A stretch of DNA of 64,000 nucleotides from NCBI RefSeq assembly GCF_003096415.1, contig NZ_QEKH01000006.1, positions 62,001-126,000 of the forward strand. The letters are read 5' to 3'. A model generated the notes under the pieces. It had not been told where the DNA came from. It did no database searches and saw nothing but the letters and a program-made list of their open reading frames with translations. Shown piece after piece: positions 49,290-51,496 of this stretch. Numbering within the stretch: the first letter of the stretch is position 1; each line of letters opens with the position of its first letter. This stretch comes from Victivallis vadensis (GTDB lineage: Bacteria > Verrucomicrobiota > Lentisphaeria > Victivallales > Victivallaceae). A program made the translations under genes and the position numbers.

Positions 49290-49829
49290 TCAGCACTTGC
49301 AGCAGTGCCCCGCTGCTGCTGAGCGGTTTCCGCGGGTCCGGCGGCGGGGCGTTGTGAACTCCCGGCGGCTCTTGCGCAGCTTCAGCACCGTCAGCTGGAG
49401 CAGTCCCGCCAGTTCCGGCGACTCCTTCGCAATCGCCAGCATCTTGCGGTGCATCCCCTGACGGCTGATGCCGTGAATCCGGGCCAGTTCCGCCACCGTC
49501 GCCGCCCGCGCCGTCGTCGCGGAAGGAGCAATCAGCTCCGCCAGGACCCCAAGCGTATAATCGTCGAGATGCAACAGGTAACGCAACAGCTCCGCCAGCT
49601 CCGGCAAGACCGGTTCCCGGACCGGAACCGGTTCCACGCCGGGAATATGGTCACAGTCGGCCAGTTCCTCCGCCCAGTTGGCCACGCTGTCGAACTCCTG
49701 CCCGCCCAGCGGACGCCGCATCCGCGCCTCGGTCGCCGCACAGAGGCGGCACGCCTCGGCATAGGTGCAGTTCCGGCATTCGCCGGAGATTTCACGATAG
49801 TTTTTCCAGCAGTGCGGAGCTTCATTCAT
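49290..49829 (-). CDS. Cys-rich small protein with C-terminal helix-turn-helix, unknown function
   Basis: 179 residues from ATG 49829 (AGGAGAAGG upstream). The N-terminus has clustered cysteines, C-X2-C-X5-C-X2-C (ECRNCTYAEACRLC), which look like a zinc or Fe-S site. The C-terminal part has a likely helix-turn-helix (TVAELARIHGISRQGMHRKM) and a basic tail ending CCKC. It could be a DNA-binding activator or a phage-like regulator. It is the third gene of a leftward mini-operon and its start overlaps the 56-aa gene by 8 bp. Confidence 0.72.
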   Translation of the reverse strand: MNEAPHCWKNYREISGECRNCTYAEACRLCAATEARMRRPLGGQEFDSVANWAEELADCDHIPGVEPVPVREPVLPELAELLRYLLHLDDYTLGVLAELIAPSATTARAATVAELARIHGISRQGMHRKMLAIAKESPELAGLLQLTVLKLRKSRREFTTPRRRTRGNRSAAAGHCCKC

Positions 49830-49992
49830 GGCAGACCTTCTCCTGTTGTTTTGAACTCTTTTTCCCGCAATCCGGCGCTTTTCCGGCCGGCATGCTCTCC
49901 AATACATTCAGCAATGCGCGCAAGCCGCACAACCGGTAACGGCGGCTGCCGCCCTCCACCCAGCCGGATTTCATGATGAATTTATCTTTCAT
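49822..49992 (-). CDS. Small ORF of 56 residues
   Basis: A 57-codon frame starting ATG 49992 with a strong GGGAGG site 5-6 nt upstream, 13 nt after the stop of the 91-aa gene, and ending inside the start of the 179-aa gene (8 bp overlap). It encodes MKDKFIMKSGWVEGG... with a RRYRLCGLRALLNVLE helix and a Lys-rich C-terminus. The RBS and tight overlaps on both sides argue that it is real. No family recognised; it could be a small regulator or an adaptor to its neighbours. Confidence 0.62.
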   Translation of the reverse strand: MKDKFIMKSGWVEGGSRRYRLCGLRALLNVLESMPAGKAPDCGKKSSKQQEKVCHE

Positions 49993-50005
49993 CGCCGCCT
50001 CCCGG

Positions 50006-50281
50006 TCACAGCCATTGCGGAATCCGGTCCGCCGCGTCGAGCCGCCCGTAATGTGTCATCCCGGCGCGCCCCGGGCGACGGCAGCTCAGGATGTCGAAAC
50101 TGACCCACCCCTGTTCGTTGAGGCTCTCCGCCAGCTTGACCAGATCCTCCCGGTTGAAGCTCAGCCGCATCACCGGCCCATACGGAGTCTCACGCACTTT
50201 CCCGGAACCCACATACGGATTTCTCACCCCCATGCGGCTGTTGCGGTTCCGGCGGTTCTGCTGGATTTTCTGCTGCATCAT
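50006..50281 (-). CDS. Small protein of 91 residues, unknown function
   Basis: ATG 50281 follows GGGAGGA with ideal spacing. The N-terminus is basic and Gln/Asn/Arg-rich (QQKIQQNRRNRNSRMG), then a folded-looking domain (YGPVMRLSFNREDLVKLAES, GWVSFDILSCRRPGR). No match recognised; the size and basic N-terminus would fit a nucleic-acid-binding or phage-encoded accessory protein. First gene of the leftward mini-operon facing the S24 repressor. Confidence 0.7.
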   Translation of the reverse strand: MMQQKIQQNRRNRNSRMGVRNPYVGSGKVRETPYGPVMRLSFNREDLVKLAESLNEQGWVSFDILSCRRPGRAGMTHYGRLDAADRIPQWL

Positions 50282-50299
50282 AATTCGTCCTCCCATTGT

Positions 50300-50328
50300 T
50301 TTGTACATCAATGCACAATTCAAGACAA
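50300..50328 (-). promoter_or_regulatory. Promoter-proximal operator 1 for the small-gene operon
   Basis: Minus strand TTGTCT (50323-50328), 17 bp, TACAAA (50300-50305). The near-palindrome TTGTACATCAATGCACAA (50301-50318) covers the spacer and -10, so a bound repressor would block initiation. It lies 20 bp before the 91-aa gene start. Confidence 0.65.
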
Positions 50329-50424
50329 AAAAATATCACGTCGGCATTTTCAGCCTGACTATACCATCTCTTTACGATATTGCTCCAACTCAGCACAGCG
50401 GAGCACTGCTTTCGCCACATCCTT

Positions 50425-50452
50425 ATTATACATCAATGCACAAATATTTCAA
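50425..50452 (-). promoter_or_regulatory. Distal promoter and operator 2 for the small-gene operon
   Basis: Minus strand TTGAAA (50447-50452), 16 bp, TATAAT (50425-50430) with TTATACATCAATGCACAA (50426-50443) sitting in the spacer and -10, in the same phase as operator 1. The region between the two promoters has no gene. Confidence 0.7.
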
Positions 50453-50482
50453 ATGAAAAATCAAAAAATTATCCATTTTTAT

Positions 50483-50526
50483 TTGATTTTGTACATTTGA
50501 GCATTATATTGTACATCAAAGAGAAA
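50483..50526 (+). promoter_or_regulatory. Repressor promoter with half-sites 3 and 4
   Basis: TTGATT (50483-50488), 16 bp, TATATT (50505-50510). TTGTACAT occurs at 50489-50496 and 50509-50516 with partial second halves, covering the spacer and start. This indicates autoregulation of the S24 gene at 50558. Confidence 0.6.
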
Positions 50527-50557
50527 AACAGACTGGGCAAACGAAGGAATCCGTATC

Positions 50558-51496
50558 ATGAAAATCGACTCCGAAATCAGGGCGGCGCTGGAGCGCGCGA
50601 TCGAAGCGAACAGCAACCGCTACCAGTTCTCACTGAAAGTCGGCATCCCGCAGCAGACCATCGGCCGGTGGCTCAGCGGCCGGACCACCTCCATCACCGA
50701 CGACGCGTGGAGCCGGGTGCATCCCTACCTGAAACCCTATATGGGCACCGTTGCGGCGCCGCAGGTTCCGCCCGCCGCGCCGCCGACCACGCCGGATACC
50801 ATCCGCAATACCCCGGAGCTGCGCGAGTGCATCAAGGACGCGATGCTCCGCGAAGGCGTCGCCTCCGCCGCCGACCTCAACCGGCTGATCGGCTACGACA
50901 GCGTCCACACGCTCGAACGGCTGCTCTCCGGGAAGCTGAACTGGTTCCCCGACATCCTCTCCGCGGTCGCGGAAGCCCTCGGCATCGACCACGATTCATT
51001 GCCGATCTCTCCGGCGGAACGCATGCAGCTGCTTCCCGCCGGCTATTTCGGCGACGGCGCGATGCTGGTCCGCCCGATTCCGGTGGTCTCATGGGCCAAT
51101 GCGGCGGGGCATCTCGACCTGCTGGCCAATCCCGATACGCGCCTCTTTTCGCGCTGGGACCCTGAAAATACCGAAACCGTCCCGGCGCCCGTCGGCACCC
51201 GGAAAGGGACTCAGGCTTTCCGCGTCACCGGCATCTCCATGGAGCCGACCATCATGGACGACGATATCATCCTGGTGGAACAGCGCATGTCGCTCGATGA
51301 AGTTCCGAACAACAAGATCGTGGTCGCCCGCCTGACCGAAGGCAAGTTCGAAGACTGCGTCGTGTGCAAACGGCTCCGCCGGCAGGGAGGTCATTGCTGG
51401 CTGACCAGCGACAATCCCGCCGGCATGGTGATCCCCGTGGAGCCCTCCGACCTCCAATGGCTCGGCATCGTCGTGCGCAAGCAGAGCGAACTGTGA
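50558..51496 (+). CDS. S24 (LexA/CI-like) repressor with two N-terminal HTH-like segments
   Basis: 312 residues. Two HTH-like segments precede the peptidase domain: QQTIGRWLSGRTTSITDDAW (~30-50), and NRLIGYDSVHTLERLLSG followed by ILSAVAEALGI (~108-145). The S24 domain has the Ser227 nucleophile in VTGISMEPT and Lys253 in NNKIVVARL, with Ala183-Gly184 in SWANAAGH where phage repressors are cleaved. Such proteins self-cleave on RecA activation and release a target operon. SD GAAGGA precedes the ATG. It faces the three small genes across four operator-like sites and is convergent with dsbD (8 bp). Confidence 0.9.
   Translation: MKIDSEIRAALERAIEANSNRYQFSLKVGIPQQTIGRWLSGRTTSITDDAWSRVHPYLKPYMGTVAAPQVPPAAPPTTPDTIRNTPELRECIKDAMLREGVASAADLNRLIGYDSVHTLERLLSGKLNWFPDILSAVAEALGIDHDSLPISPAERMQLLPAGYFGDGAMLVRPIPVVSWANAAGHLDLLANPDTRLFSRWDPENTETVPAPVGTRKGTQAFRVTGISMEPTIMDDDIILVEQRMSLDEVPNNKIVVARLTEGKFEDCVVCKRLRRQGGHCWLTSDNPAGMVIPVEPSDLQWLGIVVRKQSEL

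Follow-up and report, generated by a model that had tools for sequence, protein, structure and literature searches.

What does an S24-type repressor control when no phage surrounds it? The question is raised by a locus in a 64,000-nucleotide stretch of the Victivallis vadensis genome (the window: contig C6, positions 62001–126000, of a 5.2-Mb genome that is 99.5% complete), where the repressor gene diverges from a tight leftward operon of three small genes. The four open reading frames (ORFs) lie where an earlier, sequence-only reading had placed them: the S24 gene (312 aa) at 50558–51496 on the forward strand and, on the reverse strand, genes of 91 aa (50006–50281), 56 aa (49822–49992), and 179 aa (49290–49829). 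Shine-Dalgarno-like sequences precede all three leftward genes, and the 179-aa gene begins before the 56-aa gene ends. The 179-aa protein, here called HTH179, has an N-terminal Cys cluster (C7, C18, C21, and C27) and a C-terminal helix-turn-helix (HTH). On balance, the locus is probably a stand-alone, phage-derived repressor/activator pair with its operator only at its own locus. Below, G-numbers denote genomes (G000 being that of the window), L-numbers sequence stretches or loci, and C-numbers contigs; g15 is a related genus in the same family.

The palindrome TTGTACATCAATGCACAA occurs exactly at 50301–50318 and with one change at 50426–50443, a pair already noticed in the sequence-only reading: at up to three mismatches, it matches twice in the 64 kb, against a mean of 0.01 in shuffled sequence. 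Operator 1 (50301–50318; TTGTACAT-CA-ATGCACAA) falls within the leader sequence of the 91-aa gene; operator 2 (50426–50443; TTATACAT-CA-ATGCACAA) covers the −10 element of a leftward promoter predicted by consensus match (TTGAAA-16-TATAAT, 11/12, reverse strand, 50425–50452). Both operators had been said to overlie a −10 element; this is the case for operator 2, but the promoter scan predicted no promoter at 50301. Three copies of TTGTACAT are present on the forward strand of the 64 kb, all within 50301–50516, and its reverse complement has no copy on that strand. The half-sites at 50489–50496 and 50509–50516 lie, respectively, in the spacer and at the −10 element of the predicted repressor promoter (TTGATT-16-TATATT, forward strand, 50483–50510), which is a weaker consensus match (9/12). 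The two related sites described earlier thus do overlie the repressor's predicted promoter, but only as single half-sites.

Throughout the genome, only two sites match the operator at up to two mismatches, and both are at this locus. At three mismatches there are three further sites, which equals the control count. A genome-wide S24 regulon was rejected, since beyond the window locus the operator does not rise above control.

The repressor carries two HTH regions (aa 16–47 and 97–146) ahead of a Peptidase_S24 domain (aa 208–306; Pfam, E 1e-16); its HTH matches, HTH_3 (E 1.6e-4) and HTH_31 (E 0.0034), both fall below the Pfam curated cut-off. A Ser227/Lys253 dyad had been proposed. Ser227 indeed aligns with the GMSM motif of LexA, but the lysine is Lys271 (VVCKRLRR), which aligns with LexA VTVKRL, and Lys253 aligns with a glutamine of LexA. 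The Ser/Lys dyad is retained in 25 of 29 full-length S24 relatives. The Ala-Gly cleavage candidate is present as Ala183-Gly184; in the 29 relatives, P1 is Ala in 25, and P1′ is Gly in just 3 and Ser in 18, so that a P1′ Gly does not characterize the family. Because its dyad is intact, the window repressor may possibly be inducible through RecA.

Relatives of the window protein have lost the catalytic serine more than once. Four g15 sequences (L069, L081, L086, and L096) lack both Ser and Lys, and in a shortened form (five sequences, 188–211 aa) Gln replaces Ser and Lys is retained; all nine of these loci retain the operator. Among S24-like proteins of the dispersed type described below, read by eye, Ser is replaced in G000, G076, and G077 and apparently retained in G014. 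Members of the same S24 family also adjoin a tyrosine integrase (by Pfam) and, by eye, lie near a serine-recombinase-like gene (L080:1–3698 in G077; L079:11887–15492 in G004); the family therefore also serves mobile elements.

The phage origin of the pair is apparent from its relatives. Of the 78 family genomes, 50 contain homologues of HTH179 (E ≤ 0.001) and 35 homologues of the S24 protein (E ≤ 1e-8), and both regulators have homologues in a phage-derived capsid/packaging module of the same family, in prophages, and in a second pair within the window's own genome. In siphophage-type prophages, HTH179 immediately precedes TerL, in another prophage it precedes TerS-TerL, and in related phages and modules its homologue has connector on one side and TerL on the other. 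A search of 50,697 phages gave no match to HTH179. In a quick tree, the window HTH179 groups with the copies from G073 and from prophages, apart from the dispersed-type clade, and the window pair is therefore of the phage type. The domesticated phage switch that the sequence-only reading had offered as one possibility agrees well with this conservation. The block itself recurs in order, as S24/other gene/small gene/179-aa gene, in one other genome (G073), and an S24 gene and a 179-aa gene bracket capsid genes in 22 genomes. In G073, which has the only other compact block, a Rad52/22-type gene (L064:8794–9507; PF04098, E 9e-17) stands at the position of the 91-aa gene. Separately, at L067 (G064), RCC1-repeat ORFs and others of great length stand between S24 and HTH179; they may be tail-fibre genes belonging to another prophage.

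These features suggest how the switch could operate. The S24 protein would bind both TRCAT-NN-ATGCA palindromes as well as the half-sites and so cover the leftward −10 element and its own promoter. Upon DNA damage, RecA would provoke cleavage between Ala183 and Gly184, by which the leftward operon would be freed. HTH179, encoded by the last gene of the operon and putatively a DNA-binding protein of the type that regulates phage late genes, would then act in trans, and the repressor would thus need no operator beyond its own locus, as with RogA of Caulobacter crescentus. Both the DNA binding and the cleavage are what we infer here, as are the activator function and the targets of HTH179.

Several findings weigh against this scheme. 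The family matches of HTH179 are weak (best Pfam E 0.05) and its structure model is of low confidence (pLDDT 67, pTM 0.32), so that its activator function is argued from gene position. The promoter motif of the head-gene cassettes described below is absent from the window locus, and the window HTH179 has no identified target. The first gene of the operon, coding for the 91-aa protein, is without relative, and a Rad52-type gene occupies its place in G073. Finally, G073, the closest relative with a compact block, shows no operator core upstream of its S24 gene; nor was the core found upstream of the S24 genes in G067, G004, G074, G064, and G077, and most S24 proteins of these six genomes have a different N-terminal HTH.

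The alternative that survives best is a decaying prophage remnant of an L162/G008:C10-like siphophage, in which the switch does nothing beyond repressing itself. HTH179 and the S24 protein are nearest to prophage-type copies, and G073 holds more pieces of such a phage, namely an HTH179 gene that lies on a different contig unaccompanied by S24, and two partial matches to capsid genes. Among the window ORFs searched with Pfam, no integrase or structural gene of the sort expected in an intact prophage lies beside the repressor; the neighbors are a GntR regulator (by Pfam) and DsbD-like and thioredoxin-like genes (both named by eye). Nor is there a clean empty site, the 3′ neighbor of the DsbD-like gene differing among all nine Victivallis genomes. 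All ORFs are intact, however, with their ribosome-binding sites and overlap, the operators are spaced in an orderly way, and the compact S24/X/small/HTH179 arrangement has been kept in two species at 53–60% identity, which would not survive random decay. We regard a remnant as unlikely.

A DNA-damage-inducible stress or defence unit with the 91- and 56-aa proteins as effectors, as the sequence-only reading had it, is less probable still. The intact Ser227/Lys271 dyad, the plausible cleavage bond, and the orphan 91-aa gene at the head of the operon would all suit such a unit. PADLOC, however, returned a single defence-family match, a weak one (E 0.049), and the view of the three small genes as a payload of unknowns is not supported in that form: what is conserved in the operon is the regulator HTH179, the 56-aa ORF has a weak homologue in G073, immediately upstream of HTH179 there (phmmer E 0.0075), and only the 91-aa gene is an orphan. 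No relative of the latter was found in the family genomes (it is absent from 77 of 78, and swapped for the Rad52-type gene in G073), in a pattern scan of IMG/VR, in the 50,697 phages, or in the PDB and viral folds, although with a model pLDDT of 63 the fold searches carry little meaning.

The stand-alone pair that we favor gains context from genus g15, where in 22 genomes, on one contig each, the S24 gene faces TerS-portal-scaffold-major capsid protein (MCP)-connector-HTH179-TerL, as identified with profiles from clustered ORFs, and S24 and HTH179 lie ~4–5 kb apart. These are 22 of the 30 g15 genomes with fetched stretches; not counted are modules divided between contigs (G041, G047, and G034), truncated by a contig end (G042), with S24 on a different contig (G061), or lacking S24 (G059, G060, and G029). 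The MCP is of the SU10 type (PF17236, E 7e-46), TerL has both terminase domains, and the portal and TerS match phrog_145 (E 8e-44) and phrog_309 (E 2e-31); "scaffold" and "connector" are labels from position and look, which the libraries do not name, and the scaffold profile excludes one mistranslated ORF of L074. A portal gene is present in 30 of 34 g15 genomes. TerL retains its GGSRSGKT and acidic motifs in all 18 aligned rows, and the MCP rows are 66–89% identical to the first. For the closest six pairs, restricted to pS under 0.62, dN/dS is 0.07–0.09 for MCP, 0.04–0.13 for portal, 0.04–0.09 for TerL, 0.09–0.19 for S24, 0.16–0.24 for HTH179, and 0.18–0.38 for connector, values that a live phage could also give.

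The operator region of this module resembles that of the window. All 24 S24-TerS intergenic regions tested contain AATTGCAY-NN-RTGCAATT at up to two mismatches, with 38 sites in total against a shuffle mean of 0.14 (maximum 2), and 14 of them have two sites, mostly 69–72 bp apart. The window operator shares with it the 8-2-8 build and the ATGCA half core.

The module occupies addresses common to several species, beside infB/nusA-like or purA and rodA-like genes (named by eye). In L073 and L086 its orientation is opposite to that in L099 and L069, with the flanking genes unchanged; a search for inverted repeats at the module ends that might explain this gave only chance-like pairs. No phage-type tape measure was found in genomes with the g15 module: of 78 family genomes, 8 have a tape-measure match, and the single g15 member among these is without the module. 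Capsid-forming phage satellites known as cfPICIs have integrase and replication genes beside their capsid genes. We rejected this identity for the g15 module, which consists of eight genes between chromosomal genes that differ by subclade (flanks judged by shared clusters and by eye) and contains no integrase, a statement about the module, as a genome-wide integrase search was not made.

Outside g15, the head genes are mostly single-copy and dispersed, with chromosomal neighbors. In a 288-genome sample of the phylum, the MCP occurs in 39 genomes and TerL in 47; in each case 38 of these belong to the family, and the TerL matches outside it reach at most 261 bits. A portal gene is present in 65 of 78 family genomes, including 35 of the 44 outside g15. 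On the single 3.9-Mb contig of G067, MCP lies at 0.57, portal at 1.86, TerL at 2.24, and the HTH179 relative at 2.78 Mb; in Lentisphaerae strain zth2 (G076), TerL lies at 1.60, MCP at 1.77 (CP071032, 1,774,406), portal at 1.79, and the HTH179 relative at 1.97 Mb. Three kinds of cassette can be distinguished: portal with a ~100-aa head-closure-like gene (hhalign 99.4% to a phage gene); scaffold-MCP-connector, in some genomes with tube-like genes (hhalign 96.8%); and TerL, whose partner is either TerS or a ~500-aa gene. For each of portal, MCP, and TerL, the dispersed copies group in a clade of their own (17 portal, 22 MCP, and 14 TerL sequences, with L137 outside), apart from g15 and the prophages L162 and L066, and g15 TerL is not monophyletic; these trees, like that of HTH179, are quick FastTree trees with low support at some nodes.

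In Victivallis, the genes flanking TerL are common to several species. The window's genome has intact portal (C10) and TerL (C15) genes, and a more distant MCP on C3. On C31 (L199:9915–10178), only the C-terminal 87 aa of an MCP remain, following unrelated AT-rich sequence near a contig end; this is possibly an assembly break. The ~500-aa protein encoded immediately before the orphan TerL gene of Victivallis (L197:10078–11685, L205:7354–8850, and relatives) shows internal repeats by eye and has no family match, and a tube-like identity was rejected (hhalign 0.1%).

Regulator pairs resembling that of the window accompany these dispersed genes. A divergent HTH or HTH-S24-like gene lies next to 10 of 16 dispersed-type HTH179 relatives (G000 C24, G076, G077, G028, G014, G012, G010, G007, G008, and G067), the first being the second pair of the window's own genome; the other 6 are without such a divergent neighbor. 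The pairing is thus common, not universal. Of six S24-like proteins scanned, three have a Pfam S24 domain (G076, G077, and G014) and three do not (G000, G028, and G010); the copies of G007 and G008 consist of the HTH part only, that of G008 being broken by stops. That the window pair itself controls the dispersed head genes of its genome in trans, as a second input that supplements the C24 pair, would follow the repressor-of-activator logic described for Caulobacter (PMC11150451) and suits the intact portal and TerL, but is very improbable, because the genome already has its own pair at C24, the window HTH179 belongs to the phage-type and not the dispersed-type clade, and window-type HTH179 beside S24 occurs in only 2 of 9 Victivallis genomes, against 8 of 9 for the portal.

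The unlinked cassettes may be co-regulated. A motif search on 17 Victivallis upstream regions yielded GAGCGGAAAAGTTGACA (width 16), with a score of 327 against at most 233 in shuffles. It lies 58–117 nt upstream of the portal, TerL-cassette, and scaffold-MCP genes in G074 and G075 and upstream of some of these in G068, G071, and G000, but the motif is weak or missing at the portal and TerL of G073, TerL of G000, and MCP of G068. Over five Victivallis genomes, 10 of 16 sites at up to two mismatches fall at head-gene cassettes, and at up to three mismatches there are 77 sites, against 22 for the reversed pattern. When the three unlinked cassettes of a genome are searched for a shared 17-mer, the summed mismatches are 6 in G074, 12 in G075, and 17 in G068, compared with a minimum of 14 in 118 background triples; G074 and G075 thus beat the background and G068 is ordinary. 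We take the motif as suggestive of co-regulation and not as proof, since orthologous regions of related species do not count as independent and many −35 elements read TTGACA. A gene of 270 or 326 aa (L296:8868–9680 in G074; L297:3211–4191 in G075; 77–81% identical) lies 140–162 nt behind the motif and is a candidate further member of the regulon; an identity as tail terminator was rejected (hhalign 0.2%).

Combining these observations leads to a tentative proposal, to which we give somewhat less than an even chance. The Victivallaceae (Lentisphaerota) would have a conserved gene-transfer-agent-like particle system with head genes in scattered chromosomal cassettes of one to four genes, one promoter motif, and an S24 repressor facing a Cys-cluster/HTH activator; the window would hold a second, phage-type pair that has kept its damage trigger, and settled lineages would have lost the catalytic serine at least twice and kept the operators.

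Taken by itself, the window locus is a modest find. Its value is as a lead to a family-wide pattern, a regulatory pair kept across a bacterial family beside phage head genes or in the same genomes, and maybe to a dispersed gene-transfer-agent-like system. Should the head genes give rise to particles, the family would have a domesticated particle system, in a phylum for which the literature search found no such report, and with an unusual layout, dispersed in most genera and gathered in a compact operon in a single one. If the proposal is true, the fact that the serine was lost repeatedly and the operators were kept would represent the stepwise removal by the host of a trigger inherited from a phage.

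Comparison with known systems places the window protein closest in build to S24 phage repressors of the CI/LexA type (PHROG phrog_4), with which it shares an HTH joined to an S24 domain with a Ser/Lys dyad, a divergent operator region, and palindromic operators. Unlike these, it has two HTH regions before the S24 domain, its partner is HTH179 and not Cro, and no phage is attached. In Caulobacter crescentus, RogA is described as repressing gafYZ, the activators of a gene transfer agent, and as also reaching unlinked accessory promoters (PMC11150451). The likeness is that activators serving particle genes located elsewhere are silenced by a repressor encoded at a single small locus, in the account given there (PMC11150451); the differences are that the window repressor is of the S24 kind and that the activator role of HTH179 is putative, and the systems are likened by description, not by comparing their proteins.

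To the gene transfer agents described in PMC11841831 and PMC6854486, the relatives of the window genes are alike in having head genes without integrase, mostly in single copy, in loci of one to three genes, and under purifying selection. A TerS without N-terminal HTH is also reported for gene transfer agents (PMC6854486, PMC11841831); of the 34 g15, prophage, and dispersed-type loci listed, 11, all in g15, lack this HTH, which the remaining g15 loci retain, as do the dispersed-type TerS proteins of G076, G013, and G023. The system differs in being known here from genes alone, with no tape-measure gene found with the module and no structural gene at the window locus. Head and packaging genes conserved across species, a mark of gene transfer agents, are found in the dispersed head genes of the family and not at the window.

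FpGTA of Faecalibacterium, as presented in PMC12946183, similarly comprises near-ubiquitous domesticated particle genes in a gut bacterium outside the Alphaproteobacteria; it belongs to another phylum and is likened by description, its genes not having been compared. A literature search for gene transfer agents with Lentisphaerae, Victivall*, or Lentisphaerota found no relevant report. Cultures of Lentisphaerae strain zth2 are reported to release hexagonal and icosahedral particles with laminarin, and induced phage-type genes are reported in the strain (PMC11361711). The study names public RNA-seq data of zth2 (PRJNA946146/PRJNA756144). The phage genomes that its authors assembled lie outside the host chromosome; chromosomal head genes are not discussed in the accessible text (PMC11361711). 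This strain, our G076, thus both carries the dispersed head genes and has released particles (PMC11361711).

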